The notes under the pieces were generated by a model. It was not told the DNA's origin. It worked only from the letters and a program-made list of their open reading frames with translations, and made no database searches. Positions 13,932 through 38,726 of a DNA stretch of 46,137 nucleotides are shown in pieces. A program made the position numbers and the translations under genes. How positions within the stretch are numbered: the first letter of the stretch is position 1; every line of letters starts with the position of its first letter. The DNA is from a virus, in the IMG/VR virus record IMGVR_UViG_3300026320_000012, positions 1-46,137 of that record, one strand, 5' to 3'.

Positions 13932-13950
13932 TACAGACGCAAAAAGAGGG

Positions 13951-14024
13951 CGGACCGGGGGAGACTCCAACTCCCGACTTCCCGCTTAGTAGGCGGGCAC
14001 TCTATGCGACTGAGTTACCGGCCC
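13951..14024 (-). tRNA. tRNA with ACU anticodon on an arginine-type body
   Basis: The 74-base cloverleaf is complete: acceptor GGGCCGG/CCGGTCC (one G-U pair), D stem ACTC/GAGT, anticodon stem CCCGC/GCGGG, T stem GGGAG/CTCCC, variable region of five bases, discriminator G73, no encoded CCA. The anticodon loop CTACTAA gives ACU, formally serine (AGU), but there is no long variable arm; the D loop AGTCGCATA with A20, C35, U36 and G73 are arginine-type identity features and differ from argU-type tRNA mainly by A34. C19 with G56 replaces the usual G19-C56 pair. Confidence 0.8.
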
Positions 14025-18468: not shown

Positions 18469-18631
18469 GTTGCTGATGCAGCATCTGGTGCCTGCTGGTC
18501 CTGCGCCAGCGCAGAGGGTGGCGGGGGTGCTGCCTGGGAGGAGTCCATCGCAGGAGGATTTCCTGCTGCAGCAGTTGCGTGCTCAGAGCGATGTGAAGAG
18601 TCTGGAAGCGCTGTTCCAGAAGTACAAATGA
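18455..18631 (+). CDS. Small leucine-rich protein before the sugar genes (58 aa)
   Basis: A GTG behind GAGGAAAC starts it, 14 bases inside the upstream gene, and its stop overlaps the epimerase ATG as ATGA. The product has a hydrophobic helix start, a Pro/Ala/Gly linker and a C-terminal helix rich in Gln and Leu. No family recognised. The overlap couples it to the sugar cluster. Confidence 0.5.
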   Translation: MSLLELLMQHLVPAGPAPAQRVAGVLPGRSPSQEDFLLQQLRAQSDVKSLEALFQKYK

Positions 18632-19497
18632 GGTACTTGGTTCTAGGCGCTTCGAGTTTCTACGGTTCGAATTTCTTGAAATTCCTGCAGGAAAAAGGTG
18701 AGGATGTCAAAGGACTCAGCCGCCCCGAGTTTGATCTGCGCAAGGATTTCATGGTCCCCAACGCAGATATCGTCGTCAACTTCATTGCCGAGAGTCTTGT
18801 TGCCGAATCTTGGGAAGACCCCGAGCGCTGGCTCGAAACGAACGTCGTATGCACCAACCGGCTATTTGAGGAAATACGCAAGAAGGAAATAGGCCTCTAC
18901 ATCCATATTTCCACGCCGGAAGTGTATGGGTCGAACACCCACTGGATGAAGGAGCGCCGCGACTACCTGCCGGCGACGCCGTATGCGGTCTCCAGAGCCG
19001 CAGCGGATATGATGCTGCAAGCCTACTGGAAGGCTTACCGTTTCCCCATGATTATCACCAGGACTGCGAATATCTATGGCAAAGGCCAACAAGATTTCAG
19101 GCTCATCCCGAAAGCGTTCTCCTTGCTGGCATCCGGAATGCCCTTTCCAGTCCGCGGGACTGGGCGTTCTCAGCGTAGCTTCATCCACGTTCGAGATGCA
19201 GCCCGAGCACTATATGTGCTTTCCAAAGACGGAAAAGCCGGAGAGCACTACCACATCTCGACCCGGAAGCAACACTCGATCCTAGAAGTCGTGAGGATGA
19301 TCTGCAAGATATTGGGTAAGGGCGAGGTTGAGTTTGAAAAAGACAGACTCGGGAAAGACCATGCCTACCTGCTGAACTCGGACAAGATGAGGGCGTTGGG
19401 CTGGTACGATCAGATCGAGCTTTATGAGGGGTTAAGAGATTATGCAGATCATGGCGGTTTCCTTGAAGACAGCAGAAGATTTCTTGTCGAAACATGA
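18628..19497 (+). CDS. NAD-dependent epimerase/dehydratase (extended SDR)
   Basis: The 289-residue protein has the Rossmann motif Gly-Ala-Ser-Ser-Phe-Tyr-Gly-Ser (residues 7-14), the SDR Ser-Thr-Pro-Glu-Val-Tyr-Gly strand near 95 and a Pro-Tyr-Ala-Val-Ser-Arg-Ala-Ala-Ala-Asp segment near 115 where the catalytic Tyr-x-x-x-Lys should be; the Lys is Arg here. The rest follows the nucleotide-sugar epimerase/dehydratase pattern (Thr-Arg-x-x-Asn-x-Tyr-Gly, Arg-Ser-Phe-Ile-His-Val-Arg-Asp). It should act on an NDP-sugar. It heads the sugar cluster by ATGA overlap. Confidence 0.85.
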   Translation: MRYLVLGASSFYGSNFLKFLQEKGEDVKGLSRPEFDLRKDFMVPNADIVVNFIAESLVAESWEDPERWLETNVVCTNRLFEEIRKKEIGLYIHISTPEVYGSNTHWMKERRDYLPATPYAVSRAAADMMLQAYWKAYRFPMIITRTANIYGKGQQDFRLIPKAFSLLASGMPFPVRGTGRSQRSFIHVRDAARALYVLSKDGKAGEHYHISTRKQHSILEVVRMICKILGKGEVEFEKDRLGKDHAYLLNSDKMRALGWYDQIELYEGLRDYADHGGFLEDSRRFLVET

Positions 19498-19708
19498 AAG
19501 ACACTATAAGGCTCCCGTTGAACCTGTCTGCGCCATAGGGGTTGGCGATGAAACCGGTCTCCATGGCGCAGCAGTCCTCGGAAGAAACGGCGAAGATGCA
19601 GAACTTGCCCATATCTATTGCGACGGAGCCTCCCAAGCCTATAGCCTCCTATACGGAGCTTGCTGGCGCACCCTCAAAGCCTTGGGGTACAAAAAGGCCG
19701 TTCTGTGA
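19442..19708 (+). CDS. Truncated XF1762-like (GNAT-type) protein
   Basis: The 88-residue product matches the front of a phage family I know as XF1762-like: His-Glu-Arg-His-Tyr-Lys-Ala-Pro-Val near residue 18, a Gly-x-Ala-Val-Leu-Gly-Arg strand, and Cys-Asp-Gly-Ala-x-x-Ala-Tyr-Ser-Leu-Leu-Tyr-Gly-Ala near 62. Relatives run on for some 60 residues after Leu-Gly-Tyr-Lys-Lys; here the frame stops three codons later, where the E1alpha gene begins. It overlaps the epimerase gene by 56 bases and is probably a remnant. Confidence 0.6.
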   Translation: MQIMAVSLKTAEDFLSKHERHYKAPVEPVCAIGVGDETGLHGAAVLGRNGEDAELAHIYCDGASQAYSLLYGACWRTLKALGYKKAVL

Positions 19709-20351
19709 GCGTCTGAGGGTTTTCGAGGAATATATCCTCGCGCATCTGGAAGAAATTCGCTGCCCAGTTCACCTTTCTCTAGGTCAGGAGCTTGTGTCAG
19801 AGGCTATCCATCGAAATATCCTTAAAGGCGATTGGCTATTCTCTACTCATAGAAACCATGGACATTATCTAGCGAAGGGCGGGAGCGAAGACAGGCTGTG
19901 GGATGAAATATGCGGTTTGGAGACTGGAATTAATCGCGGTATGGCAGGCAGTCAGTGTTTCTCCGATCCTGCGATAAACTTTCACGCGAGTTCAATTGTC
20001 GGCGGATCGATCGGTATTGCCGTGGGCGCGGCTTTTTCGTTGAAGGGAAGCGGAAATCTGGTCGTGTGCTGCCTGGGAGATGCCGCCACAGAGCAGGGGG
20101 TCTTCTGGGAAGCATTGAATTTTTCTGCATTGAAAAAACTCCCCATTTTTTTTATCTGCGAAAATAATCGATTGTCCATTGATGTCCCCATTGTGGAGCG
20201 TCAGACTGTCGGCATAACCCGGAGGGTCAAGACCTGGATCGAGATAGCGCCGACCATAAAACAAGGTTTCGAGATGGGCAGAATAGCCCCGATGTTTCAC
20301 GAAGCCTTTGTAACCAGAGAGGGGAAGCATTGCTATTTTCAGAAGAAATAA
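19596..20351 (+). CDS. E1alpha-like thiamine-diphosphate dehydrogenase subunit
   Basis: From about residue 40 it follows the E1 alpha fold of 2-oxoacid dehydrogenases: Arg-Cys-Pro-Val-His-Leu-Ser-Leu-Gly-Gln-Glu, Ser-Thr-His-Arg-Asn-His-Gly-His-Tyr-Leu-Ala-Lys-Gly-Gly, Ile-Val-Gly-Gly-Ser-Ile-x-Ile-Ala-Val-Gly-Ala-Ala, and the cofactor site Gly-Asp-Ala-Ala ... Glu-Asn-Asn, with Ala for the third Gly of Gly-Asp-Gly. It is about 80 residues shorter at the C-terminus than normal. The start is unclear: ATGs at 19548, 19563 and 19596 all lie inside the truncated GNAT gene. Confidence 0.75.
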   Translation: MQNLPISIATEPPKPIASYTELAGAPSKPWGTKRPFCERLRVFEEYILAHLEEIRCPVHLSLGQELVSEAIHRNILKGDWLFSTHRNHGHYLAKGGSEDRLWDEICGLETGINRGMAGSQCFSDPAINFHASSIVGGSIGIAVGAAFSLKGSGNLVVCCLGDAATEQGVFWEALNFSALKKLPIFFICENNRLSIDVPIVERQTVGITRRVKTWIEIAPTIKQGFEMGRIAPMFHEAFVTREGKHCYFQKK

Positions 20352-20836
20352 ATAAGGCTCTGGACGAAGCCCTGAAGGATGAGAGGACACTGCTATGCGG
20401 ACAACTCGTGAACTACGGTCATTCAGCCCTAACCCGTGGGCTGGAGAAGAAATATCCGAATCAAGTGGTGACCTATCCGGTGGCGGAGAATTTGATGAAT
20501 GCGAGTGCGATGGGGATGAGCTTGGCGGGCAAGAGACCGATTGTATTGCATGAGCGCTTCGACTTCGCCTTAGTTGGAATGGACGCACTTATCAACCATA
20601 TTGCGATCTGGCCGAAGAAATGCGCAATGAAATTGCCTTTGGTGATGATGATAGTGGTGGGACACGGTAAAGGTCAGGGACCGCAGCAGAACAAGGATTT
20701 CACTGGATGGTTCAGGGAAATGGAGGGCTGGACTGTCCTTGAGCCGCGTCTTCCTGGATCGGCCTCCGTTGCTGTTCACGCTGCGACTCTTGCCGAGTCT
20801 CCGGTAATGCTCATTATCCATCGGGAGCTGTATTGA
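20330..20836 (+). CDS. E1beta-like thiamine-diphosphate dehydrogenase subunit, N-terminal domain only
   Basis: A TTG behind GAGGGGAAG starts the 168-residue product, 22 bases inside E1alpha. It matches the pyrimidine-binding half of E1 beta: Glu-Glu-Ile-Asn-Lys-Ala-Leu, Pro-Val-Ala-Glu-Asn-Leu-Met with the catalytic Glu, Met-Gly-Met-Ser-Leu-Ala-Gly-Lys-Arg-Pro, and Met-Asp-Ala-Leu-Ile-Asn-His. The usual C-terminal domain is missing. With E1alpha it could form a small ketol-transfer enzyme that builds a sugar; no E2 or E3 partner is encoded. Confidence 0.75.
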   Translation: MLFSEEINKALDEALKDERTLLCGQLVNYGHSALTRGLEKKYPNQVVTYPVAENLMNASAMGMSLAGKRPIVLHERFDFALVGMDALINHIAIWPKKCAMKLPLVMMIVVGHGKGQGPQQNKDFTGWFREMEGWTVLEPRLPGSASVAVHAATLAESPVMLIIHRELY

Positions 20837-21432
20837 TCTTTCCCGATGGTTCGATGGCCGGATATAGCTGGGAGAACGATCCGAAGCGCTTTGCCTTCAC
20901 CTGCGCCAGATACAAATTCATTGCGAAGATGGTAGAGGGCATGGACAAGGTGCTGGAGGTCGGCTGTAATGATGGGTTTTTCTCACGCATCGTCAGACAG
21001 CATGTAAATCATCTGGTAGGAATGGACAATGACCCGAAGGCTGTTGAACTCGCCAAGGAGATGAACTCTGAGAAATGGAACATCTACTTTCAGCAGTGGA
21101 GCATACTGGATTCGACAGTGTTGTCTCAGCCAGGGTTCGATGCTGTGTATTGCCTGGATGTATTCGAGCACATAAAGGAGGAGGATGTTCTTCTACAAAA
21201 TCTCGTATTTTTTGCTCCTATGTGCATTATCGGCACTCCTAGCCTTGAGTCTCAAATATATGCTTCTCCGGTATCTAAAGCGGCGCATGTTAATACGGTT
21301 ACGAAATCACAACTCCGAACCAAGATGAAGAAATATTGGAAGCATGTTATTTGCTTCGGGATGCAGGACGAGGTTCTTCATACCGGCAAAGACGAAATGT
21401 GCAATTATATTTTCGGTCTTGGGTTCAAGTGA
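20833..21432 (+). CDS. Class I SAM-dependent methyltransferase
   Basis: A TTG in TTGA overlap with the E1beta stop starts the 199-residue product. Motif I is Val-Leu-Glu-Val-Gly-Cys-Asn-Asp-Gly-Phe-Phe (about 40-50), followed by Gly-Met-Asp-Asn-Asp at the acidic strand and Phe-Asp-Ala-Val-Tyr-Cys-Leu-Asp-Val-Phe-Glu-His as the Asp-x-x-Glu-His element common in methyltransferases of glycan and small-molecule pathways. In this cluster a sugar is the likely substrate. Confidence 0.8.
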   Translation: MIFPDGSMAGYSWENDPKRFAFTCARYKFIAKMVEGMDKVLEVGCNDGFFSRIVRQHVNHLVGMDNDPKAVELAKEMNSEKWNIYFQQWSILDSTVLSQPGFDAVYCLDVFEHIKEEDVLLQNLVFFAPMCIIGTPSLESQIYASPVSKAAHVNTVTKSQLRTKMKKYWKHVICFGMQDEVLHTGKDEMCNYIFGLGFK

Positions 21433-22490
21433 AACTCCCTCGTCCTGAGCCTGCCCTCGGCATCTTGGCCTACGCCCAAGAGCGCGATCTGTGCGTCAAC
21501 ATGGATCGCAGGAAGGCCGATAACTGGCGCTCCTATATCCAGACTAAGAATCTAGGCTGGCGCTCGACGATTGGCTATTTACCGATCAAGCTCGATATCG
21601 AAAACTGCTCACGCTGCAATTTCGCGTGCACTATGTGCGCGGTATCGAAGTGGGCGCACGGCAAGCGCGCAGACGACATGACGCTGGAGGAATTCAAGGC
21701 GCTCATCGATGAGCAATACGGTTTGGTCGAGATCAAACTGAACGGCCTGGGCGAGGCTTTGATGCAGGGGGATGATTATTTCGAGATGGTCAAGTATGCG
21801 AGGGCCAAGCATATCTGGGTGCGGATGACCACAAACGCCTCGCTCCTGCATCTACGGGACAACTACAAAAAACTCATCGACTCCGACGTGAACGAAATAG
21901 ATATCTCGATAGACGGCGCAGACCAAAAGACATTCGAGGGGATCAGGATACAGTCTGACTTCGATCAGGTCGTAAAGAACGCGAAGCAACTGAACGATTG
22001 CTGCGCTGGGACGAGGACGAAGATGTGGACGCTGGTGCAGAAGGCCAATTATACCAATTTGGCCGAACATCTTCATCTGGCTGACTATATGGGATTCAAG
22101 AATGTCGTGTTCTCCATGAATATGCACGGATGGGCCGACCCTGAATTGAAAAAGCGCAACGACGCCGAAATGGTCAATCTGAGCGAAGACTATATTTCGC
22201 ATCTTATGGAGACCGCCAAAAACAAGAGAATTAAACTCGCGTTCTGGGATGTAAATGATAAATTCGATACCGATATCATGCAGCACCGCTGCCCGTGGCC
22301 CTTCGAACGGGCCGTAGTGACCTCCGATCTGAGGACTGTTCCTTGCTGCATGATCGGCGATCCTGATAAATTCGAGATCGGGAAAGGCAAGACATTCCTG
22401 GTGAACTGGAAATCCGAGGAATATCGTGATTTCAGGCAGGCCCATATAGACGGAAATATTCCAGACGTCTGCAAAGCCTGCTACAAATGA
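21429..22490 (+). CDS. Radical SAM enzyme with SPASM domain
   Basis: The GTG in GTGA overlap gives 353 residues. Cys-Asn-Phe-Ala-Cys-Thr-Met-Cys (about 60-67) is the CxxxCxxC site that holds the 4Fe-4S cluster cleaving SAM, followed by the Gly-Leu-Gly-Glu-Ala element. The C-terminus has Cys-Cys-Met-Ile-Gly and Cys-Lys-Ala-Cys-Tyr, a SPASM-type auxiliary cluster site. Such enzymes in glycan clusters modify carbohydrate or peptide substrates by radical chemistry; the substrate here is unknown. Confidence 0.85.
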   Translation: MKLPRPEPALGILAYAQERDLCVNMDRRKADNWRSYIQTKNLGWRSTIGYLPIKLDIENCSRCNFACTMCAVSKWAHGKRADDMTLEEFKALIDEQYGLVEIKLNGLGEALMQGDDYFEMVKYARAKHIWVRMTTNASLLHLRDNYKKLIDSDVNEIDISIDGADQKTFEGIRIQSDFDQVVKNAKQLNDCCAGTRTKMWTLVQKANYTNLAEHLHLADYMGFKNVVFSMNMHGWADPELKKRNDAEMVNLSEDYISHLMETAKNKRIKLAFWDVNDKFDTDIMQHRCPWPFERAVVTSDLRTVPCCMIGDPDKFEIGKGKTFLVNWKSEEYRDFRQAHIDGNIPDVCKACYK

Positions 22491-23635
22491 AGGTGCTGAT
22501 TCTCGGCGGAGGATTCGCCGGAACGACGGCAGCTTATCTTCTCCAGAAAGAAGGCTATGAAGTTACCCTCATGGAGAAGGAGCCTCATCTGGGCGGCGGG
22601 TGCAGGACTTTCTTCTATGGCGGTCATCCTTTTCAATACGGCCCGAGGGTCTATTATGGATATAGCAAAAAAGTCTTTGACTGGGTTAATTCGTTCACGC
22701 CAATTCGCAGGTTTCCTTTTGAACTTAGAACCTTTGTTGAAAGCGATCAACGCTTCTACCACTACCCGATACATGAGGACGACTTGCCCTCAATGCGGGC
22801 ATACGCACAGATTAAATCTGAACTCGCAGCCAGAGACAACTCCAAGGAACCCAAGGATTTCGAGGAATACTGGATCAACCGAGTAGGGCGAACGCTCTAC
22901 GATATGTTCGTCAACAACTACTCTAAAAAGATGTGGATGATCGATGACAACCGCATCTTCGACATCTTCAAATGGAGCGCCAAGGACAAGCCGATAGAGT
23001 CAGGGCCGAAGGGGACTTATAAGGATTCGATCATCGGCTATCCGTATGCCCATGATGGATACAACGCCTATTTCGATGTGATGACGGAGAATGTCGAAGT
23101 TAGATTGAACGATTCATATTCTTGGTATGACAGGCACACTTTATCTTGCGAGGATTTCGATCTTTACATTAACACAATTCCTATTGATGAATTTTTGGGA
23201 TATGAATTTGGAGAGCTTCCATATGTTGGAAGAGATTTTCAAGTCATCATTCTGCCCTGCAAGCAAGTTTTTCCAGCGGATATCCGCTTCTGCCACTATG
23301 CGGGTTCAGAGCCGCACACCAGAATAACGGAGTTCAAAAAACTGACCTATCATGAGTCTGAAGATACCCTCTTGGTCATTGAGACCCCTTCGCATAAAAA
23401 CAAGCTATATCCCTATCTCACCAAAGCAAATATGGCTACCGTGGGGAAATACCTGGATTCCCTACCACAAAACGTTTATTCCATTGGAAGGCTTGGCACG
23501 TACAAATATTCGACGATTGAGCAAACTATCTGCCAAGCATTTGAAGTGGTATCGAAGATTACGGGCAAGTCCAATCCAATGGCAGATCAATTCTTTGGCA
23601 TCGGCGACACTGCATTGATGAAAGATAGAAAGTGA
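22487..23635 (+). CDS. glf: UDP-galactopyranose mutase-like flavoprotein
   Basis: ATGA overlap fixes the start of this 382-residue protein. It has the FAD Rossmann motif Gly-Gly-Gly-Phe-Ala-Gly (7-12), a Gly-Gly-Gly-Cys-Arg-Thr loop, Tyr-Gly-Pro-Arg-Val-Tyr-Tyr near 48, Asn-Asn-Tyr-Ser-Lys-Lys-Met-Trp near 144, Asp-Gly-Tyr-Asn-Ala-Tyr-Phe near 189, and Gly-Arg-Leu-Gly-Thr-Tyr-Lys-Tyr near 340, matching UDP-galactopyranose mutase, which makes the galactofuranose donor UDP-Galf. Length is normal for the family. Confidence 0.85.
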   Translation: MKVLILGGGFAGTTAAYLLQKEGYEVTLMEKEPHLGGGCRTFFYGGHPFQYGPRVYYGYSKKVFDWVNSFTPIRRFPFELRTFVESDQRFYHYPIHEDDLPSMRAYAQIKSELAARDNSKEPKDFEEYWINRVGRTLYDMFVNNYSKKMWMIDDNRIFDIFKWSAKDKPIESGPKGTYKDSIIGYPYAHDGYNAYFDVMTENVEVRLNDSYSWYDRHTLSCEDFDLYINTIPIDEFLGYEFGELPYVGRDFQVIILPCKQVFPADIRFCHYAGSEPHTRITEFKKLTYHESEDTLLVIETPSHKNKLYPYLTKANMATVGKYLDSLPQNVYSIGRLGTYKYSTIEQTICQAFEVVSKITGKSNPMADQFFGIGDTALMKDRK

Positions 23636-24435
23636 CTAAAACGGTTCTATACGATCTATCGGTAATGCCTACTACCTTTGATTTCGCCTGTACGGCAGTC
23701 ATGGCGAAGACTTTGGGCTATGAGGAAATCAGGTTCGTCGTGGATAAGCCCATGACGGAATGGAAGTATCCGGCGAAGATAGGCTGGAGGCGTTGGGCGA
23801 ATATCCTAGTTCCACTGTGCGAGTTGGCCGACCTCAGTTTCTCTGTGGGCCGCGAGATTCCCGGTGATACATTGGGTTATACGACCGGGAATGTCGAGGA
23901 GATATTCAAACGAACCGGCAAGATCACGAAATTGAGGCCAGTGGAACTGCCGGATAAGTCAGGTTATATAACAATCACTCTAAGGCAATCATTCAGGAAT
24001 GAATGGCGTAATTCAAGTCCCGATTGGCTCAAGGTCGCCGAATGGCTAAAATCAGAGGGTGAGGAAGTCTATATCCTCGAAGAATCTGAAGAAGTCCCTA
24101 TCGCTATTGAAAAGCGCATGGGCATTTATTGTAATGCCAAGATGAATCTGGCCGTCGGTAATGGCCCGATGGTTCTATGTTGGCTATCCGAGGCCCCATA
24201 TCTGACTTTCCAGCTTCCAAAGGGCCCGGAGAAGGAATACACCGCCTTGGTGGGACAGTGGGATCGCATGGGATTTCCAGTAGGCTCTCAACTGAGCTTT
24301 AAAAATGAAAGACAGGAAATCGTCTGGGATACTGATGACTATGAGATCGTTAAGACCCACTGCGAAAAGCACTTGTTTGACAAGAACTTAAAGAAAGGCG
24401 CAAACTCGCGCGCTAATGAACGGCATACGGCTTGA
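23632..24435 (+). CDS. Glycosyltransferase-like protein
   Basis: GTG in GTGA overlap; 267 residues. The first half has a Rossmann-like nucleotide-sugar transferase look and the second half contains Tyr-Ile-Thr-Ile-Thr-Leu-Arg-Gln, Val-Tyr-Ile-Leu-Glu-Glu and Asn-Leu-Ala-Val-Gly-Asn-Gly-Pro, similar to the heptosyltransferase-like (GT-B) domain order. No strict signature is present. Its end overlaps the large terminase start by 20 bases, so the cargo is transcribed with the packaging genes. Confidence 0.55.
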   Translation: MTKTVLYDLSVMPTTFDFACTAVMAKTLGYEEIRFVVDKPMTEWKYPAKIGWRRWANILVPLCELADLSFSVGREIPGDTLGYTTGNVEEIFKRTGKITKLRPVELPDKSGYITITLRQSFRNEWRNSSPDWLKVAEWLKSEGEEVYILEESEEVPIAIEKRMGIYCNAKMNLAVGNGPMVLCWLSEAPYLTFQLPKGPEKEYTALVGQWDRMGFPVGSQLSFKNERQEIVWDTDDYEIVKTHCEKHLFDKNLKKGANSRANERHTA

Positions 24436-28125: not shown

Positions 28126-28772
28126 TGGCTTTCACCCTAGTACAACAAAATAGTGGTACGGCGAACGGAACTTCGATCACTGTAAGTTATGGTTCCACGC
28201 CGACAAACGGGAATCTCTTAATAGGTGTTATTGGATCGAATGATGGAGGGGCTACCGATCCGACAGGATGGTCTACAGCCGTTAACAAGGTCAATGTCAC
28301 CGATGACGATTTCGTTAGGATTTCCTATAAAGTCGCCGGGGCCGCGGAGACTACTGCGGTCGCTTTTACCGGTCTTGTCGGCAATAGTCATGGTCTTGGA
28401 ATTTTAGAGTTTGCCACGCCTACGGCTTCACCGATTGATGTTACGTCATCCGCTGGCGAAAGTCTGGCTGCTACCTCTCAGACATCAGGCACGACCGCAG
28501 CAACGGCGCAAGCCGATGAGCTCAGTATCGTAGGATTTCAGATACGCGCTGATGTTACCACTCCATCTCTATCCAATGGCTTCACATTGCAGCACGATCT
28601 ATTCAACGCCGTAACCGTTTTAGTCGGCTATAACATAGAAAGTGCCACCGGAACTAAGGAATCAACAGCTTCATGGACAGTCGCCGGGAACTCAATCGGC
28701 GTAATCGCTACTTTCAAGGCTGCGGCTGCGGTAGGCGATACTTCCACTCCAATTCTTAATTTCATGTTCTGA
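28125..28772 (+). CDS. Beta-rich virion protein (215 aa)
   Basis: TAATG overlap with the portal gene. The product is Ser/Thr/Ala/Gly-rich with repeated short strands (Ser-Ile-Thr-Val-Ser-Tyr, Phe-Thr-Gly-Leu-Val-Gly), few charged residues and no cysteine, typical of immunoglobulin-like decoration or fibre-base domains. No named family. Position between portal and fibre genes supports a structural role. Confidence 0.6.
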   Translation: MAFTLVQQNSGTANGTSITVSYGSTPTNGNLLIGVIGSNDGGATDPTGWSTAVNKVNVTDDDFVRISYKVAGAAETTAVAFTGLVGNSHGLGILEFATPTASPIDVTSSAGESLAATSQTSGTTAATAQADELSIVGFQIRADVTTPSLSNGFTLQHDLFNAVTVLVGYNIESATGTKESTASWTVAGNSIGVIATFKAAAAVGDTSTPILNFMF

Positions 28773-30154
28773 TGGCCTCAGTCAGACACGCAACATCGGT
28801 TCAAGGTGCCGATGATCCTGGAAAGTCGGTACAGGCGGCACAATGGAATGAAGACCATACGCTTGTAGGCATCCCCGATCAGGCGTCATTAGATGCCGTC
28901 AGCGCAGCTGTCTCTGTTGTAGCGGCGAATCTTTCTGCATTGAGCGTCACAGTCGCCGGAATTGGCGGTGGCGAGGTTCATCCCACTTCGGCTGAGTTTG
29001 TCAGCCTTCAAGCTGACTTCTCCACTCTGAGCATTCAGGTCACGAACGTTTCCGCTGCCGTAAGCGTCGTGGCGGCAAATCTCTCCAATGAGATTTCCCT
29101 GCGTTCTTCGCAGATCAACACTGCATCCGGGGCCGTTAGTACGCTTTCTTTGGCCGTTTCAGTCGTAGCTGCTGCTCTTTCAAATGAAACCTCGGCACGT
29201 ATAGCGGGCGACAACGCAGCTTCTGGAGCCGTGAGCACTCTAAGTCTTGCTCTTTCGGCTGAAACTGCCGCGAGGATAGCGGGGGATAACACAGCCTCCG
29301 GCGCAGTGAGTACACTCAGCCTCGCAGTTTCGGTGGTTGCAGCTGCGCTCTCGAATGAAATTTCTCTCAGATCATCCCAGATCAATACAGCTTCTGGTGC
29401 TGTAAGTACATTGTCTCTAGCTGTATCTGTGGTAGCGGCGGGACTGTCAAACGAAATCTCCGCAAGGAATGCGACAAGCAATGCTATTAGCACTATGAGT
29501 CTTGCCGTTTCAGCAGCAGAGGCCCACGCCGCCGCCGCTTCCGCTGCTGTCAGCACTTTGAGCCTTGCGGTTTCGGTTGTGGCCGCGCAGCTTTCTGCTA
29601 CTAGCGTTCAAGTAACGGCAGTCTCTGCTGCGGTGTCAGTGGTCGCTGCTGGCTTGAGCGCACTGAGCATTCAAGTCTCTACCCTTTCGGCGCAGATGAC
29701 CTCACTTGTCGCATCCAAGATCGTAATGCTTGGAGCACAGACAATATCGGTATCGGCTCTAACCAATGTTTCCGGGCAAGCATTCTCGGTAGGGGCGAAT
29801 AATACCTACGCTTTCAAGTATATGATTATTTACCAAGCCGCCTCGACTGCTACAGGGTTGGGAGTGAGCGTGACCTTCCCTGGGATGAAGACATTTGCGG
29901 CTACTGCCTATATCACTTCTGGTGCGACCGGAACTGCGAACACATTCTCTGGGCCTATAACGGCCTCTGGAACTAAGATTCAAGCTCTAAGCTGTCAGAC
30001 TGCCGCGACGGACTTTTACGCCGTGATAGAGGGAGCTTTCCAGGTATCTACTTCAGGCACCTTGCAGCTTCAGGCCGACTCTGGAGTTGGCGGGACTTCT
30101 GCTCAGGTCATCATCAGGCCAGGAACATTCGGAATGGTATGGAGGGGCGCTTGA
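28772..30154 (+). CDS. Fibre protein with Ser/Ala/Val heptad repeats
   Basis: The 460-residue product has a short N-terminal attachment segment, then about 280 residues (roughly 40-320) of Ala/Ser/Val/Leu repeats built on units such as Ala-Val-Ser-Thr-Leu-Ser-Leu-Ala-Val-Ser-Val-Val-Ala-Ala, and a C-terminal beta domain of about 140 residues. The repeat should form a trimeric coiled coil or fibre shaft. TGATG overlap joins it to the gene before. Confidence 0.75.
   Translation: MASVRHATSVQGADDPGKSVQAAQWNEDHTLVGIPDQASLDAVSAAVSVVAANLSALSVTVAGIGGGEVHPTSAEFVSLQADFSTLSIQVTNVSAAVSVVAANLSNEISLRSSQINTASGAVSTLSLAVSVVAAALSNETSARIAGDNAASGAVSTLSLALSAETAARIAGDNTASGAVSTLSLAVSVVAAALSNEISLRSSQINTASGAVSTLSLAVSVVAAGLSNEISARNATSNAISTMSLAVSAAEAHAAAASAAVSTLSLAVSVVAAQLSATSVQVTAVSAAVSVVAAGLSALSIQVSTLSAQMTSLVASKIVMLGAQTISVSALTNVSGQAFSVGANNTYAFKYMIIYQAASTATGLGVSVTFPGMKTFAATAYITSGATGTANTFSGPITASGTKIQALSCQTAATDFYAVIEGAFQVSTSGTLQLQADSGVGGTSAQVIIRPGTFGMVWRGA
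29087..29610 (+). repeat. Protein repeat array of the fibre shaft
   Basis: The unit Ala-Val-Ser-Thr-Leu-Ser-Leu-Ala-Val-Ser-Val-Val-Ala-Ala begins at 29132, 29303, 29399 and 29546. The amino acids are almost identical, but nearly every codon differs in its third base between units, so the repeat is strong in protein and weak in DNA. Confidence 0.8.
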
Positions 30155-31485
30155 AGCGTCTTGATGTCCTAAAGACGAAGGTCAATACCTCTTACTGCAT
30201 TTCTGATGAGCGCAGGGATCAGCAGATGCGTCTTTCGAACGCGCGGATCAATGGCAGAGTTCAGCCAGCAACGCAGATTTATGACGAAGAAATAGCCATT
30301 GTCTGCTACGGGCCGTCCCTGAGAAAAACTTGGACAACAATAAAATCCTTCAAGAAGATTATGACTTGCTCTGGAGCGCATAAATTCCTCTTGGAAAGAG
30401 GGATCATGCCCACTTGGCACGTTGATCTAGACCCGCGCGAGCATAAAACTAAGATGCTCGGAGAGCCTCACAAAGATGTCGAATATCTGATGGCGTCATG
30501 TTGCCATTCGAGCATGTTCGATAAGCTTGAAGGCTTCAATGTGAAACTGTGGCATATCTACGCCAATGAAACGAATAAGGAGCTTCCCAGGACTTACCCG
30601 CGCGGCGACTGGATTCTGACCGGCGGCAATAATGTCGGGATGAGGTGTCTAGTGATGGCGCGTCTTTTGGGCTACCGGAACTTCAATATCTTTGGCATGG
30701 ACTGTTCCTTCCCCAAGCATGGTTCCCACCATGCTGATGCCCACCTGAATCCATCATCAAGGATTTATGAGACCCCATACGACGGGAAGATGTACTACTG
30801 CGAGCCAGTGATGCTTGACTATGCGCGTAATTTCTTCCATGAAGTAGAGCAGCTTCCAGATGTGACGATCAAGATGCACGGCGAGGGCCTCTTGCAGCAT
30901 ATGGTCTACAAGAAAATGGGCGACCAGATAAAGGTCAAACCCAAGGCCGTGATTGCGTTTTCAACTCCAGTGACGATCACGCCAGCATACGTAGAATTGA
31001 ACAAGAAGATGCACCTGAATCCGATCTATGGGATCGGTGGAAGGGCGCGTAAGGAAGTAGTTTTGAAGCTCTCAGAGGCCCTGAACACGCGCTCCATTCT
31101 TGATTACGGCTGCGGGAAAGGAACCTTGGCCGCGAGCCTAGCTTTCCCTATTTGGGAGTATGACCCGGCTGTGCCCGGCAAGGATTCAGTGCCTCGTGCT
31201 GCTGATCTGGTCGTGTGCCTGGATGTGCTGGAGCACATCGAACCAGAGATGCTGGATAATGTCTTGGGCGATCTCGTCAGATGCTCGAACAAAATGCTCT
31301 TTGCCATCATAGACACCGGCCCAGCGGAAAAGGATTTGCCTGATGGCCGTAACGCTCACCTAATCCAGCAGGATAAAGACTGGTGGCAGGAGAGGCTGGG
31401 CAAATTCTTCAAGATCGGGGCAATCCTCCAGACCGGGCCTGAGCTTCATTGCGTCCTTGAGCCTAAGAAGATGGGGCCATTGTGA
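30151..31485 (+). CDS. Maf/DUF115-like glycosyltransferase fused to a methyltransferase
   Basis: The TTG at 30151 (TTGA overlap, behind GGAGGGG) is the likely start; an ATG at 30139 is an alternative. Residues 45-230 match the DUF115/MptE-like domain of Maf flagellin glycosyltransferases: Val-Cys-Tyr-Gly-Pro-Ser-Leu, a Gly-Ala-His-Lys-Phe-Leu strand, Trp-His-Val-Asp-Leu-Asp-Pro and Gly-Gly-Asn-Asn-Val-Gly-Met. Residues about 310-440 are a class I methyltransferase with Tyr-Gly-Cys-Gly-Lys-Gly and Cys-Leu-Asp-Val-Leu-Glu-His. It probably adds and methylates a sugar on a protein. Confidence 0.75.
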   Translation: MKRLDVLKTKVNTSYCISDERRDQQMRLSNARINGRVQPATQIYDEEIAIVCYGPSLRKTWTTIKSFKKIMTCSGAHKFLLERGIMPTWHVDLDPREHKTKMLGEPHKDVEYLMASCCHSSMFDKLEGFNVKLWHIYANETNKELPRTYPRGDWILTGGNNVGMRCLVMARLLGYRNFNIFGMDCSFPKHGSHHADAHLNPSSRIYETPYDGKMYYCEPVMLDYARNFFHEVEQLPDVTIKMHGEGLLQHMVYKKMGDQIKVKPKAVIAFSTPVTITPAYVELNKKMHLNPIYGIGGRARKEVVLKLSEALNTRSILDYGCGKGTLAASLAFPIWEYDPAVPGKDSVPRAADLVVCLDVLEHIEPEMLDNVLGDLVRCSNKMLFAIIDTGPAEKDLPDGRNAHLIQQDKDWWQERLGKFFKIGAILQTGPELHCVLEPKKMGPL

Positions 31486-33090: not shown

Positions 33091-33206
33091 CGCCGACCTA
33101 AAAGGGCGCATTTGTAGGGCCGCCTCCTTAAGGGCGATTGTAATTGTTATCCGCCGCCGGGTTTCCGGGCGAGAAACAATTTATCAATTGAATTAAGGAG
33201 AGTGTC

Positions 33207-34301
33207 ATAGCACAGACATATGCCCAGCCGGGTTTAACTCCGCAAATCTGGGATTCGGACTTCTTTCGCGACTATGTGCGTGCGAGTAGATTTCGCCGCT
33301 ATATGGGGACTTCGGAAGCTTCAATCATCCAGCTGAAAGAGGAGTTGACCAAAAAGCGGGGCGATTCAGTTACCTTCGCCCTCGTCAATGAATTAGTAGG
33401 AAGCGGTGTTACGGGTAACAACACCTTGAGGGGCAATGAGGAAAGACTCGGCTCCCGGTCGATGAAGCTGACGGTTGACGTTCTGCGTCACGCCGTAGCG
33501 GTTGATGACTGGGATGACCAAAAATCCGTAATTGACCTTCGCATGGCGGCTCAGACCCAACTTCGGGAATGGGCACAGAAGAAGCTTCGGGACGCGATCA
33601 TCACTAGTTTGGGTGAGATCGACGGTACGGCGTTTGAATCGGCAACCGGCGCTGCGCGTACCACCTGGAATACGAATAACGCTGATCGCGTATTGTTCGG
33701 GTCCAGCACAGCCAATTACACAGCCAATTTCGCCTCGGCGGCGGCTTCAATCGCAGCCAGCGAGCAGCTCGGGCCTCTTACCCTGAGCCTCATGAAACGG
33801 CTGGCACAAAAGGCTTCCCCGAAAATTAAGCCGATCTATGTCAAGGAAATGGATCAGGAGTGGTATGTGGCCTTCATTGGGTCTCGCAGTTGGAGAAACC
33901 TGACGGAGAACAGCCCGACTACCAACGTCCTCACCTTGGCGAACCGGGATGCCCGTATCAGGGGTGAAGACAATCCTCTGTTCACAGGCGACTCCCTGGT
34001 TTGGGACGGTATTATCCTGCGGGAAATTCCTGAAATTCAGCCTCTTCTGGCGGTTTCTGGGTCTGCAGGTACTGCGATCGAGCCCGTTTATCTGTGCGGG
34101 GCTCAGGCTATTGGTATCGGATGGGCTCAGAGAACCAAGAGCACGACCGACCTTACCGACTATGGTTTCTTGCATGGGGTAGGGGTCCAGGAAATTCGGG
34201 CTATCAAAAAGCTGCGGTTTGGGACTGATCCAACGGTGGATACGACTACGCCGAAGGATCATGGCATAGTGACGGCCTTCGTCGCAGCGGCTTCGGACTA
34301 A
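33207..34301 (+). CDS. Major capsid protein with ATA start
   Basis: The 364-residue protein has the coat signature of the DUF4043/N4 gp56-like group: Thr-Tyr-Ala-x-Pro-Gly-Leu-Thr-Pro-x-x-Trp-Asp ... Phe-Phe-Arg-Asp-Tyr-Val, Arg-Phe-Arg-Arg-Tyr-Met-Gly-Thr, Asp-Ser-Val-Thr-Phe-Ala-Leu-Val-Asn and Thr-Val-Asp-Val-Leu-Arg-His-Ala-Val-Ala-Val-Asp-Asp-Trp. Relatives begin with Met-Ala just before this; here the codon is ATA (33207-33209), six bases behind AAGGAG. The in-frame TGA at 33189 is followed by no ATG, GTG or TTG until GTG at 33276, which would lose 23 residues and has no ribosome site. Confidence 0.88.
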   Translation: MAQTYAQPGLTPQIWDSDFFRDYVRASRFRRYMGTSEASIIQLKEELTKKRGDSVTFALVNELVGSGVTGNNTLRGNEERLGSRSMKLTVDVLRHAVAVDDWDDQKSVIDLRMAAQTQLREWAQKKLRDAIITSLGEIDGTAFESATGAARTTWNTNNADRVLFGSSTANYTANFASAAASIAASEQLGPLTLSLMKRLAQKASPKIKPIYVKEMDQEWYVAFIGSRSWRNLTENSPTTNVLTLANRDARIRGEDNPLFTGDSLVWDGIILREIPEIQPLLAVSGSAGTAIEPVYLCGAQAIGIGWAQRTKSTTDLTDYGFLHGVGVQEIRAIKKLRFGTDPTVDTTTPKDHGIVTAFVAAASD

Positions 34302-34311
34302 GGAGAACACT

Positions 34312-34779
34312 ATGGCTGTCTTCACAGCAAATGCAGCGCAAACGACCGCGATGCCGAAAGGCAATCGGACAGGCCTGGTGGCGGTTACTTCGTTCTGGTC
34401 GTGGGATCGATCCGTTTCTGTCGGGACTACGATTCAGATGGTCAAAGTACCTGCCGGCGGGACTCCGTTATTTGTTCAGGTGGGCTCCAACAATGCGGGT
34501 CAGTCTTCCGTGTCCGTTGGTGATGGGATCAACAATTCCAGATATCTGAACAACATCACCCTTTCCTCAGCAATGGGGATGGTAATTGGTGGTGCCAGCG
34601 GAACGGTAATGGCGGTAGCGGCGCCTTATACCTATAGCACGGATGACACTATCGACATCTTCGTGTCTCTGGTATCCATCACAACTATCGGCGGGGCGTT
34701 CTATCTGACGACCATTATTTCCATGGACGTTCAGCCCACAGGTACAGTTGTCGGTCTTACTGGCGGTGTAGCAGGCTAA
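34312..34779 (+). CDS. Capsid-associated protein (155 aa)
   Basis: AAGGAGA stands before the ATG, ten bases after the coat stop. The product is Thr/Ser/Gly/Val-rich and beta-forming with almost no charged residues, as expected for a capsid decoration or head-fibre protein. It lies between the coat gene and the terminator, so it should be made in large amounts. Confidence 0.65.
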   Translation: MAVFTANAAQTTAMPKGNRTGLVAVTSFWSWDRSVSVGTTIQMVKVPAGGTPLFVQVGSNNAGQSSVSVGDGINNSRYLNNITLSSAMGMVIGGASGTVMAVAAPYTYSTDDTIDIFVSLVSITTIGGAFYLTTIISMDVQPTGTVVGLTGGVAG

Positions 34780-34785
34780 AGGATT

Positions 34786-34805
34786 GGGGGCGAAAGCCCC
34801 CTTTT
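34786..34805 (+). terminator. Intrinsic terminator after the coat operon
   Basis: GGGGGC-GAAA-GCCCCC-TTTT is a perfect six-pair GC stem with a GNRA-type loop and a U-run. It separates coat/decoration genes from the TPR glycosyltransferase gene, whose ATG is four bases on, so downstream expression must rely on read-through or another promoter. Confidence 0.85.
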
Positions 34806-34809
34806 CCCC

Positions 34810-36156
34810 ATGGAACTATTCGAGGAAGCTACAGAACTACATAAGGCAGGGAAATACAAGGAAGCAGAAGAGAAATATGATCTGCTTTTCACTCAGAATC
34901 CAAACAATGCTGGGTTGATAGCAACCTACGCTACATTGTGTCTCCAGACCGACAAGATCGGGCTGGCGATCAGTCTCTATCACCGGGCACTGGAAAAACT
35001 GCCCAATCAGAGCGAAGTCCTCTCGAATCTAGGTCTCGCCTACAAAAAGGCGGGCATGAGGGACAAAGCCTTCCAATATCTGGATAAGGCTTGCAAGTTC
35101 AATCCGACCGCCGAAGCCCTATCGAATTATGGCGGGCTCTATACTCAGACGAATAATCCTGACAAAGCTATCGATCTTTGTTCTCGTGCCATTGCAAAGA
35201 ATCCTGAACTGGTCATAGCCCACTGGAATCTAGCTCTCGCGCTGCTTGAGTCCGGCAAGTGGGAGACTGGCTGGGATGAGCATGAATGGGGCCTGAAAGC
35301 GGCTCCAAACGCTTCCAAGATGCGGGTCGATAGGAAACTAGGCGGCAGGCCAGAATGGGACGGAACCCCTGGTAAGACTGTGGCTGTCTATGGCGAGCAG
35401 GGTCTGGGCGATGAGATCATGTTTTCCTCAATGATCCCGGACCTGATGAAGACGAACAAGGTCATTCTGGAATGTCACCCGCGCCTTGAAAAGCTCTTTT
35501 GGCAGTCATTCGGACTCAAGGTATTTGGCACGCGAGAGCAGGACGATCCACAGTGGGTCAAGGACACGGAATTCGACTATCGCATCTCAATTGGTTCGCT
35601 GGGTAAGTTTTTCAGGCGCACCAAAGAGTCGTTTCCCGGTATGCCTTATCTGAAATCTGAGAAGGCTCCAGAAACCGGGAAATTCAGGATAGGAATTTCC
35701 TGGACTGGCGGGCATAAAGCATCCCGCGTGATGATGAGGACGGTGCCGCTTTCATGGTGGAAGCCAATCCTAAACCAGAAGGATATTGAGTTCGTATCGC
35801 TTCAATATACGGACTGCGACGAAGAACTAGCCATCATGAAAGGCGATGGATACGACATCAAGACCTATGATGCGATCAAGGCTTTCGAGTATTCGGAGAC
35901 CGCGAAGATCGTCAAATCCTGCGATTTGGTTATCTCCGTCTGTACCTCAGTCATCCATCTTGCCGGTGCTCTGGGTGTCCCATGTTGGGTCATGGTTCCA
36001 AATAAACCGGCTTGGAGGTACGGGGTTTCCGGGAGAATGGTTTGGTATTCTAGTGTGCGTTTATATAGACAAAAAGAATCCTGGCTTCCGGTCGTGGAAG
36101 TCATTGCCGATGACTTGAGAAATCTGCTTGAAGACTTGAGAGAGAAGGCTGCCTGA
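34810..36156 (+). CDS. TPR-domain glycosyltransferase
   Basis: Residues 1-150 hold four to five TPR units (Ala-x-x-Leu-His-Lys-Ala-Gly-Lys-Tyr-Lys-Glu-Ala-Glu-Glu, Leu-Gly-Leu-Ala-Tyr-Lys-Lys-Ala-Gly). Residues 185-448 form a GT-B domain of the heptosyltransferase/GT41-like type with Gly-Glu-Gln-Gly-Leu-Gly-Asp-Glu-Ile-Met-Phe near 199 and Val-Cys-Thr-Ser-Val-Ile-His-Leu-Ala-Gly-Ala-Leu-Gly near 378. Such proteins use the TPR part to bind a protein and glycosylate it. Here it lies among virion genes. Confidence 0.85.
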   Translation: MELFEEATELHKAGKYKEAEEKYDLLFTQNPNNAGLIATYATLCLQTDKIGLAISLYHRALEKLPNQSEVLSNLGLAYKKAGMRDKAFQYLDKACKFNPTAEALSNYGGLYTQTNNPDKAIDLCSRAIAKNPELVIAHWNLALALLESGKWETGWDEHEWGLKAAPNASKMRVDRKLGGRPEWDGTPGKTVAVYGEQGLGDEIMFSSMIPDLMKTNKVILECHPRLEKLFWQSFGLKVFGTREQDDPQWVKDTEFDYRISIGSLGKFFRRTKESFPGMPYLKSEKAPETGKFRIGISWTGGHKASRVMMRTVPLSWWKPILNQKDIEFVSLQYTDCDEELAIMKGDGYDIKTYDAIKAFEYSETAKIVKSCDLVISVCTSVIHLAGALGVPCWVMVPNKPAWRYGVSGRMVWYSSVRLYRQKESWLPVVEVIADDLRNLLEDLREKAA

Positions 36157-36833
36157 TGGGACTCCCAATCTCAGCTCTACACATAATCGCCCCCCTGATC
36201 GAGGGGAAGAAAGTCCTATGTCTCGGCTATCCGGATATTATCGCCACGCCAGAGCATATCGAGGAGATTTTCGGAGTGACTCCGGTAAAGTTCACTGAAA
36301 GGGGAAAGGATCATGGTTACGAATTTCCTCTGCCTGAGACCTATTCTCTCTTTGAAAAAGTCGGGGCCGAACTGACTTGCATCGATGTTGTTTCAATTTT
36401 CGGCAAGGAGAAGATAGTTGACTTGAATTATCCGCATGATTTGGGGAAATTTGATCTGGTGATAGATCCAGGTACTTGTGAGCATTGCTTCAATATCGCT
36501 CAGGCTCTGATGAATGCGGCGCACGCTGTAAAAGCCGAAGGCCGCATCTTCCATATCAATCCGATGAATTGCATGAACCATGGCTTCTACAATATCTGCC
36601 CGACGCTGATGCACGATTTCTATGAGCAGAATGGGTGGAATGTGGAGGTCATCAAAGCGGTTCCGATGAGGCCAATGGAATTCTCCGCGACCAAGCGGTT
36701 CTTCGATAGCACCGAATACAACCTCTATACGCTCGCCCAGAGACTGGGTGAGATAGCAATGACCTATCCGACGCAGCACAAATATTACAAGCGCATCGTT
36801 TTAGACCAACAGAGAAAGGTAGCAAATGGCTGA
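36156..36833 (+). CDS. Methyltransferase-like protein
   Basis: TGATG overlap with the glycosyltransferase gene. The 225-residue product has a Val-Leu-Cys-Leu-Gly-Tyr-Pro-Asp strand near residue 21, Phe-Asp-Leu-Val-Ile-Asp-Pro-Gly-Thr-Cys-Glu-His-Cys-Phe near 105 where methyltransferases have Asp-x-x-Glu-His, and an Ala-Glu-Gly-Arg-Ile-Phe-His-Ile-Asn-Pro strand. The classic Gly-x-Gly loop is weak, so cofactor binding is not certain. It may act on the sugar or protein modified by its neighbours. Confidence 0.65.
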   Translation: MGLPISALHIIAPLIEGKKVLCLGYPDIIATPEHIEEIFGVTPVKFTERGKDHGYEFPLPETYSLFEKVGAELTCIDVVSIFGKEKIVDLNYPHDLGKFDLVIDPGTCEHCFNIAQALMNAAHAVKAEGRIFHINPMNCMNHGFYNICPTLMHDFYEQNGWNVEVIKAVPMRPMEFSATKRFFDSTEYNLYTLAQRLGEIAMTYPTQHKYYKRIVLDQQRKVANG

Positions 36834-37053
36834 TAAGCAAGGTTATAAATGCGGTCCCGCCCCGAAGAATAGGCAAGTCACTATGCCGACTTCGGCACCG
36901 CGGCATCTTCTGGCTCCTGGATCGAAGCCGCCGATGCAGACGAAGACCGATATGCCAGACAAGATGAAGTCGTTTGGCAGTCCCACGGCAGCTCCTGGTA
37001 AGGTCTACCAGCATCAAGGGGGCCGCAAGGGCGGAAACGCGCCGTCCTCGTGA
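36826..37053 (+). CDS. Small basic virion-type protein (75 aa)
   Basis: The start lies eight bases inside the previous gene. The product is Lys/Pro/Gly/Ser-rich, with a Gly-Gly-Arg-Lys-Gly-Gly end and no hydrophobic core, so it is probably disordered. Phage head or internal proteins often look like this. No family recognised. Confidence 0.5.
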   Translation: MADKQGYKCGPAPKNRQVTMPTSAPRHLLAPGSKPPMQTKTDMPDKMKSFGSPTAAPGKVYQHQGGRKGGNAPSS

Positions 37054-37754
37054 TCCGAATTTTCATCGGCTGGGATAGCAACGAAGCGGTAGCTTCGAGC
37101 GTCCTCATTCACTCCCTGATGAGGACGGCGAAGGAGCCTATCAGCATCACGCCTATGATACTTGGGCAGCTTCCTATGACCAGGGCGAGAGCGGAATATC
37201 AAAGCACAGAGTTCTCGTTCTCAAGGTTCCTCGTGCCCTATTTGTGCGGCTATGCGGGACGGGCGATATTTTTGGACGGAGACATGCTATGCCGCTCAGA
37301 CATTGGAGAGCTATGGAAACTGACCGATACGCCACACCCAGTTTCGGTGGTGAAGCATGATTACCAGCCGAAAAAGGAGGACAAGTTCCTCGGCTATAAG
37401 CAGAGTCTCTACGACAAGAAAAACTGGTCGAGCCTCATGGTCTTCAACAACGAACGCTGCAAGGCGCTCACGCCAAAGGTCGTCAATGATGCTTCTGGAC
37501 TGTTTCTACATCAGTTCAAGTGGCTCCAAGATGATTCACTGATAGGTTCCATCCCGGTTGAGTGGAACCATCTCGTAGGGGAGTACCCGCCCAATCCAAA
37601 GGCGAAACTGGTGCACCACACTTTGGGAAGTCCATGCTTCAAGGCATACAGCCAGTGTGAGTTTGCAACGGAATGGTACGATGAATTGGACCGCCTGAAC
37701 GATTACAACCGTATCGGCGAATACAAGGTGAAGCATGAAATTCGTGCAGTATAA
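37050..37754 (+). CDS. GT8-like glycosyltransferase
   Basis: GTG in GTGA overlap. The 234-residue product has the GT-A features of family 8-like enzymes: Ile-Phe-Ile-Gly-Trp-Asp-Ser at the start, Tyr-Gly/Ala-Gly-Arg-Ala-Ile-Phe-Leu-Asp-Gly-Asp-Met near residue 72 with the metal-binding Asp-x-Asp, and a Val-His-His-Thr-Leu-Gly element near 188. It transfers a sugar from a nucleotide donor. It overlaps the next gene by 20 bases. Confidence 0.8.
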   Translation: MIRIFIGWDSNEAVASSVLIHSLMRTAKEPISITPMILGQLPMTRARAEYQSTEFSFSRFLVPYLCGYAGRAIFLDGDMLCRSDIGELWKLTDTPHPVSVVKHDYQPKKEDKFLGYKQSLYDKKNWSSLMVFNNERCKALTPKVVNDASGLFLHQFKWLQDDSLIGSIPVEWNHLVGEYPPNPKAKLVHHTLGSPCFKAYSQCEFATEWYDELDRLNDYNRIGEYKVKHEIRAV

Positions 37755-38010
37755 GGAAGATGTAATCTGGAAAGAGGGGCGCATGTGCCTGCGCGGCAAA
37801 CCCTTTGAGGTTTATGACGATTATGCGCTCGGTGTTTTCTCGACCGACCCCAAATTTGAGAAGCTACAGGAGAATGAAGATGAAGAAATCCAAGGGCAAG
37901 AAGCCCCGCAGAACCCCATCGTACTGAAAGGCAAAGCTTGTACCAAATGCGGGAAATTGATCCCGCGCGGCTGGTATTTCCATGACAAAAATTGTAAGGG
38001 TATGAAGTGA
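37735..38010 (+). CDS. Small protein with C-terminal zinc finger (91 aa)
   Basis: The product has a beta-rich start, an acidic linker and a Cys-Thr-Lys-Cys-Gly ... Phe-His-Asp-Lys-Asn-Cys end (about residues 73-88) that could bind zinc. It stands between a glycosyltransferase and a tail adaptor gene, joined by overlaps on both sides. No family recognised. Confidence 0.55.
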   Translation: MKFVQYKEDVIWKEGRMCLRGKPFEVYDDYALGVFSTDPKFEKLQENEDEEIQGQEAPQNPIVLKGKACTKCGKLIPRGWYFHDKNCKGMK

Positions 38011-38726
38011 CCACGACGTTCACGAGAACGACCAGTCAGCTCGCCGACATGATTTTAAGGAAATTGGGAGTTCTCGGCTCTGGTCTCTCGGTATCCGCCG
38101 CCGCTTCTGACGTAACCATAGTGACGGAGGCCATAGACCTATGGATCAAGCAGGCGCACAAGGAAGGCATCTACTGGCGCAAGGTCAACAAGCGTCCACT
38201 GTCATTCAATATCCCAGCCAATGTTGCTTCCGCCTCAGCTGCATCCGTAGGCGATGTCCTATTCCCCATCTCGATGCACGTCACGATCAATTCCATCGAT
38301 GAGCCAGTGGATATCATCGGGCCGGTCGAATATGCGGACATCTTCGACAAGTCCTACCAGGGACCGCCAACCAAGGTTCTCTGGACTGGCAGTGCGAGCG
38401 CGGAGTTCATCTTCTGGCCGGTGCCGACAGTCACTACGACCGCCAAGCTAGTTTATGAGGCGATTGCCGACGATACGACCGCCAACGCAGCAATAGACGT
38501 GGATGTCTCAATGCTGCGATGGGTGAAGGATATTATTGCGTTCAACCTTGCCGATGAGTATGAAATCCCCGAGGGCAAGATTCAGAGGTGGGCGAAGGAA
38601 GCTCAATATGCAATCTTGCAGATTAAGAAGCTCGGTGCGTTGAGAATCGACCCGAAGCCCGTCGCCGTGGATGACTTCAATATCCACACGCCGCAGGGGA
38701 GGGGATTGAATGATTATGCGATCTGA
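38007..38726 (+). CDS. Head-tail adaptor-like protein
   Basis: GTG in GTGA overlap. The 239-residue product has the layout of the tail-adaptor group near P22 gp4: an N-terminal helical part (Leu-Ala-Asp-Met-Ile-Leu-Arg-Lys-Leu-Gly), a central beta part and a C-terminal helix (Trp-Val-Lys-Asp-Ile-Ile-Ala-Phe-Asn-Leu-Ala-Asp-Glu-Tyr). It lies where P22-like phages have gp4, between capsid and gp10-type genes. The assignment rests mostly on position. Confidence 0.6.
   Translation: MTTTFTRTTSQLADMILRKLGVLGSGLSVSAAASDVTIVTEAIDLWIKQAHKEGIYWRKVNKRPLSFNIPANVASASAASVGDVLFPISMHVTINSIDEPVDIIGPVEYADIFDKSYQGPPTKVLWTGSASAEFIFWPVPTVTTTAKLVYEAIADDTTANAAIDVDVSMLRWVKDIIAFNLADEYEIPEGKIQRWAKEAQYAILQIKKLGALRIDPKPVAVDDFNIHTPQGRGLNDYAI

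Follow-up and report, generated by a model that had tools for sequence, protein, structure and literature searches.

The stretch of DNA analyzed here (virus record IMGVR_UViG_3300026320_000012, 46,137 bases; hereafter the window) belongs to a short-tailed phage that encodes a P22-type portal, a major capsid protein (MCP) of the Phage_capsid_3 family and a head-closure protein of phrog_578. Three sugar-related genes had been placed between the capsid and tail genes by the initial annotation, and the three open reading frames (ORFs), their coordinates and their neighbours were all confirmed (Table 1). The cassette follows the MCP gene and a gene for a 155-aa protein, and precedes the head-completion and tail genes. 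Because starts and stops overlap throughout 34810-38726, the genes for the TPR-containing glycosyltransferase (TPR-GT), the methyltransferase-fold protein MT2, a 75-aa protein, the GT8-family glycosyltransferase, a 91-aa protein and the SU10-adaptor-like protein constitute one coupled chain. A promoter scan of the plus strand from 32.1 to 39.5 kb listed no sigma-70-like site, although scans of this type are weak. A host assignment was attempted through the TerL and MCP relatives and yielded no host name; elsewhere in the window, a tRNA-Ser with the unusual anticodon ACT is located at 13949-14024 on the minus strand.

Table 1. Coordinates of the cassette, the preceding coat genes and the dispersed partner genes in the window
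Feature	Position	Strand	Remarks
Sugar cargo	18628..24435	+	4,6-dehydratase-like; split TPP E1-like alpha/beta; methyltransferase; radical SAM/SPASM; UDP-galactopyranose-mutase-like; gene 23632-24435
MptE/DUF115 (Maf-like) domain fused to methyltransferase	30139..31485	+	C-terminal half of the family normally behind TPR-GT in other phages
MCP, acceptor candidate	33207..34301	+	Phage_capsid_3, E 2.7e-50; phrog_334; PDB MCPs 9vye/7eel
155-aa protein in decoration/cement position, acceptor candidate	34312..34779	+	Ser/Thr-rich (23%); kept directly behind MCP in relatives
Terminator-like hairpin, then TTTT	34787..34806 (stem-loop about 34787-34802)	+	GGGGGC-GAAA-GCCCCC
TPR-GT (TPR + GT-B glycosyltransferase)	34810..36156	+	448 aa; GT9/TibC-like fold; TPR about residues 1-165, GT domain about 176-448
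MT2, class I methyltransferase fold	36156..36833	+	225 aa; divergent motif I (LGYPDII); start overlaps TPR-GT stop
Small protein, no assigned role	36826..37053	+	75 aa; overlaps MT2 and GT8; missing from the initial annotation
GT8-family glycosyltransferase	37050..37754	+	234 aa; PF01501; phrog_28018; GTG start overlaps stop of the 75-aa ORF
Head-completion protein	38007..38726	+	weakly SU10-adaptor-like; end of the overlapping gene chain

The TPR repeats of TPR-GT were recognized well above the Pfam cut-off (TPR_2, 67.5 versus 27 bits), and the trace of GT9 was weak and fell below it (PF01075, E 0.04, 13.6 versus 22 bits). The AlphaFold (AF2) model built from a 20-sequence alignment had a pLDDT of 92 and predicted about ten TPR helices followed by the two Rossmann-like domains of a GT-B fold. 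Foldseek ranked SPINDLY and OGT first for this model, with which it has the TPR plus GT-B layout in common; the whole-chain superpositions on them were poor (9-16 Å) and no GT41 match was found in Pfam. Using VIA-align, the GT domain was superposed on WaaF (1psw) with a Z of 16.6 at 3.1 Å over 242 aligned residues, on WaaC with a Z of about 16, and on the protein heptosyltransferase TibC with a Z of 15.2 at 3.4 Å over 243 residues, indicating a GT-B fold of the WaaF/WaaC type. A profile search with the GT domain by itself gave no significant PDB relative (1psw, E 0.63), so its family placement rests on the fold. A GDE motif and other residues were invariant in the alignment of 20 relatives, and D201 of this motif was paired with the GD of WaaF in a profile alignment that scored below threshold, so D201 may be a catalytic residue. 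TPR-GT is 88% identical in amino acids to its nearest relative; synonymous sites are saturated between the two, and dN/dS was therefore not computable. To judge from its sequence, the protein is under strong constraint.

The protein encoded behind it, MT2, was assigned as a methyltransferase only weakly by sequence (Methyltransf_12 in Pfam, E 0.008), and its model (pLDDT 77.5) superposed on NodS with a Z of 12.3 at 2.8 Å over 154 aligned residues, which corresponds to a Rossmann-like methyltransferase fold. Its motif I reads GYPD or SYPD instead of GxGxG in nearly all of 30 relatives, so that the glycine motif for SAM is absent. Since the positions EHCFNI and NHGF are nearly invariant among the relatives, MT2 is regarded as a maintained protein of uncertain chemistry. 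Given the weak sequence call, the lack of a PDB relative by sequence and the missing motif I, its designation as an ordinary methyltransferase was rejected, and we refer to it as a methyltransferase fold. Searching the viral sequences with the single MT2 protein returned no match, and searching with the MT2 alignment returned 28 loci. A separate phage group has consecutive genes for GT8, a Maf-like MptE protein and MT2 (at about 5.5-8.4 kb in each of L196-L202) and no TPR-GT, and in four of these genomes the MT2 match was reported with one internal TGA. The GT8 protein scored 31 bits against PF01501, above the cut-off of 24.3, and its metal-binding DxD motif (D76, D78) was invariant in 20 relatives. 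Hydropathy of the membrane type was found in none of GT8, MT2 and the MptE-methyltransferase fusion, and a scan of the genes surrounding the cassette detected none of the phage Gtr serotype-conversion families (membrane flippase and membrane glycosyltransferases).

Upstream of the cassette, the MCP is 73-74% identical to those of the relatives, and no family match was found for the 155-aa protein in the decoration position. The MCP gene apparently starts with the ATA at 33207 (33195-33209), where the aligned codon is ATG in the relatives, and is preceded at a distance of about 6 nt by the Shine-Dalgarno sequence AAGGAG; with the listed GTG start at 33276, 23 conserved residues would be lost. 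The same base is present in another contig of this virus, IMGVR_UViG_3300002907_000005, with 0 mismatches over 8,400 bases. This codon may be a genuine AUA start, or an assembly error common to both contigs if they were built from the same reads.

The strong terminator that had been noticed behind the coat genes is present as a perfect GC stem closed by a tetraloop and followed by four Ts. It was missed by a simple terminator scan because its T run is short, and the fold of the region was ordinary in comparison with shuffled sequences (z -0.9). Among 57 relatives, a strong GC hairpin between the decoration gene and the TPR-GT gene was found in 49 (86%), versus 4.6% of 2280 random 75-nt stretches, and a hairpin with a T-rich tail behind the decoration gene in 79%, versus 1.1% of the random stretches. 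The position of the hairpin is kept across the phages and the stem sequences differ. In the window the stem ends 7-8 nt before the start codon of TPR-GT, where no Shine-Dalgarno sequence is found; as the stem lies 6-8 nt from the start codon and such a sequence is missing throughout the window's clade, the hairpin may damp translation besides transcription.

To define how closely TPR-GT is linked to the capsid genes, IMG/VR was searched with a profile, which returned 584 TPR-GT relatives, and the best 80 of the 584 were fetched. Within the 2 kb preceding TPR-GT, a same-strand MCP gene was found in 53 of the 54 loci among these 80 that have at least 2.5 kb upstream, and in 42 of 43 after removal of near-copies; because the loci were picked by likeness to the window's TPR-GT, this fraction applies to its lineage. 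The upstream MCPs fall into two families, with 36 belonging to that of the window's MCP and 17 to phrog_1328. In the sole eligible locus with no capsid gene just upstream, L141 (3518-11884), the portal gene follows TPR-GT at a distance of about 4 kb. Both GT8 and a methyltransferase occur within 3.5 kb downstream of TPR-GT in 30 of the 48 loci with room, and GT8 and MT2 are missing from some phages with TPR-GT (G010, G012). The usual methyltransferase partner behind TPR-GT is of the family found in the C-terminal half of the window's MptE fusion, which scored 29.6 versus 27 bits for Methyltransf_23 and carries the motif I ILDYGCGKG, both marks of a class I SAM methyltransferase. MT2 replaces this partner in L180-L182, L186-L188 and L195, and none of the loci with room had both behind TPR-GT. 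The methylated glycan proposed earlier rests more on the methyltransferase of the MptE fusion, whose family is the usual cassette partner, than on MT2, which is devoid of the SAM motif.

The genes of the putative set are dispersed in the window and move among its relatives. The window and three further 45-kb genomes (G001-G003) all encode TPR-GT, MT2 and GT8, in differing placements: TPR-GT follows the decoration gene in all four, MT2 lies behind TPR-GT in the window and immediately before the scaffold gene in G001-G003, and GT8 lies behind TPR-GT in the window and G003, whereas in G001 and G002 it immediately precedes the large terminase gene. This last slot is the place of the window's sugar cargo, and in G001 part of the cargo (the dehydratase-like, E1 alpha and beta, and radical SAM genes) lies upstream of MT2. 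Relatives of the cargo gene at 23632 are located behind TPR-GT in G001, L107 and L135; this gene was considered as a further transferase on a likeness seen by eye, and the assignment was dropped as neither a profile nor a PDB match was obtained. The strongest indication of a joint role of the scattered genes is the trading of late-region slots by the same genes among relatives, and the TPR-GT set and part of the 18-24 kb cargo look like one exchangeable set in these gene-order comparisons. A relative of the HNH endonuclease encoded at 16698-17147 on the minus strand separates TPR-GT from the methyltransferase in the glycan cassette of MW202512.1, and this endonuclease is a possible agent of the shuffling. 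The initial annotation had described a dispersed but complete system, of which the belonging together of the dispersed pieces is supported by the slot exchange and the completeness is not supported: NTP_transferase, for NDP-sugar synthesis, gave no match in the window and three relatives, with positive controls detected, the 4,6-dehydratase-like protein has Tyr-x3-Arg with Arg at the expected catalytic Lys, and MT2 lacks GxG. The missing NTP_transferase suggests that sugar nucleotides are probably supplied by the host.

The gene at 28772-30154, between the portal gene and the MptE fusion gene, which overlaps its 3' end, encodes 460 aa with imperfect heptad-like repeats (ASGAVSTLSLAVSVVAAALSNE) and 25% Ser/Thr, and no nucleotide tandem repeat was detectable in it. 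Its product looks fibre-like and would be a second candidate for the glycan acceptor.

In a tree of the GT domain with 95 rows, 50 phage and 3 prophage sequences were located on one side of a branch with an SH-aLRT of 93 and 42 bacterial sequences on the other (1 change), by a quick method without bootstrap. Only 3 of 80 loci from bacterial genomes had adjoining capsid genes (L229, L239 and L222, the last a prophage-like locus of Reyranella sp. CPCC 100927), and the others often lay in islands with more TPR-GTs, GT8 and methyltransferases, indicating that the set is not intrinsically viral. As the toolkit is common to cells and the phage branch is separate, one branch seems to have entered capsid operons. 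A flagellin pattern was matched once near the bacterial relatives in the 80 loci, and ten neighbours of bacterial TPR-GTs were housekeeping or signalling genes by Pfam.

Collectively, the gene comparisons argue that the capsid-linked glycosyltransferase cassette is real, conserved and widespread, occurring in dozens of other phages, and the recurring arrangement suggests that these phages sugar-coat their own particles. We consider it probable that the cassette is expressed late and glycosylates a virion protein delivered by the TPR arm, the reading that best fits position, timing, TPR arm and constraint. The TPR arm would bind a structural protein made just upstream, either the decoration protein or the MCP, the GT-B domain of TPR-GT would attach the first sugar, GT8 would add the second, and one or more methyltransferases would cap the glycan, while the hairpin would let only part of the transcripts through and so keep the enzymes fewer than the coat protein. 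We infer the activity of the cassette, its sugar, its acceptor, the order of the steps and the dose effect of the hairpin from the genes, and the coat proteins are putative acceptors. Adjacency to a capsid gene means the same timing and is not proof of the same target. A natural control is the locus L214 (617-3153), which has an MCP 70% identical to that of the window and a dissimilar decoration protein but lacks TPR-GT, and the decoration protein as acceptor would fit this pattern (n=1). The decoration proteins contain 22% Ser/Thr with TPR-GT versus 18 and 15% in two controls without it, a difference not used as evidence. For the wider claim, that a phage-specific TPR-GT lineage fixed behind the capsid gene, with two MCP families and many short-tailed phages, is dedicated to virion-protein glycosylation, its TPR arm reading the coat or decoration protein and interchangeable methyltransferases and GT8 finishing the glycan, we hold the chances to be even.

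GT9 and GT8 families both include classical glycosyltransferases of the LPS core, which makes late remodelling of the host LPS core the main rival: a GT9-like enzyme and GT8 would extend the core in the cytoplasm, for example against progeny sticking to debris or against superinfection. The fold of the GT domain is indeed nearest to WaaF and WaaC, and GT8 is also present in the bacterial islands. However, LPS heptosyltransferases have no TPR arm, TibC, within about 1.4 Z of WaaF as a fold match, acts on a protein, GT8 and MT2 have no membrane-type segment, and the linkage is to capsid genes (53/54 loci among the best 80 of 584 relatives) in a late gene chain, so we judge this activity unlikely. 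That the sugar goes to a tail or fibre protein, either the receptor-binding part or the coiled-coil protein of the 28772 gene, instead of the shell is suggested by the running on of the cassette into tail and head-completion genes and by the overlap of the Maf-like MptE fusion gene with this Ser/Thr-rich gene, but it is rather unlikely too, as TPR-GT is fixed behind the MCP and decoration genes and not behind fibre genes, and the coiled-coil gene was seen in 3 loci only.

The joint occurrence of TPR-GT, methyltransferase and GT8 in bacterial islands, the several late-region insertion slots and the varying partner genes would also be expected of cargo from a bacterial glycan island hitch-hiking in a permissive slot with no dedicated virion role. 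This explanation is improbable given that the position of TPR-GT is constant over deep divergence and two MCP families, and that the TPR-GTs form one phage lineage under strong constraint. Phage glycosyltransferases can modify DNA (Pyle 2024, cited in PMC12619734), and the enzymes might thus act on a hypermodified base, which we regard as very improbable: the window and three relatives yielded no thymidylate-synthase or hydroxymethylase family gene, with controls detected, and the cassette lies in the late region. A search for Tet_JBP, for DNA-base oxidation, gave no match with its controls silent too and carries no weight.

If glycosylation of a virion protein is correct, protein glycosylation of phage particles would be a common trait of environmental short-tailed phages instead of a mycobacteriophage peculiarity, performed by an enzyme with the domain layout of the eukaryotic OGT. 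A clean system would also become available, with one TPR arm, one abundant neighbouring acceptor and natural phages with and without the gene, in which one could ask what glycans do for a virus that has no need to meet animal immunity.

Among known systems, OGT and SPINDLY (GT41), which act on proteins, likewise fuse a TPR superhelix to a GT-B domain, but the window's GT domain, taken by itself, superposes on GT9 enzymes at 3.1 Å. WaaF, WaaC and TibC have the same GT-B fold, with Z of 15-16.6 over about 240 residues, whereas WaaF and WaaC have no TPR arm. FlmG of Caulobacter crescentus is a flagellin O-glycosyltransferase and demonstrates that a cytoplasmic GT-B enzyme can owe its choice of acceptor to a TPR arm (PMC7591256). 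It resembles TPR-GT in carrying an N-terminal TPR and a C-terminal GT-B part in one protein, a comparison made by layout and not directly by sequence, and in using a sugar made by separate genes; it differs in its acceptor, flagellin, its sugar, pseudaminic acid, its length of 596 aa and its cellular origin. The earlier suggestion that the TPR part points to a protein acceptor is supported by analogy with such enzymes, in which the acceptor protein is bound through the TPR arm. In mycobacteriophages, proteins of the capsid and tail tube are modified by the phages' own glycosyltransferases, with an O-methyltransferase encoded nearby (Freeman 2023, cited in PMC11600133 and PMC12619734). These are siphoviruses of Mycobacterium in which the modification was shown experimentally, and the available text of these two sources does not report a TPR-GT9 type enzyme fixed behind the MCP and decoration genes. 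Virion glycosylation by phages is thus known from the mycobacteriophages, and the cassette described here is a different and widespread enzyme set.
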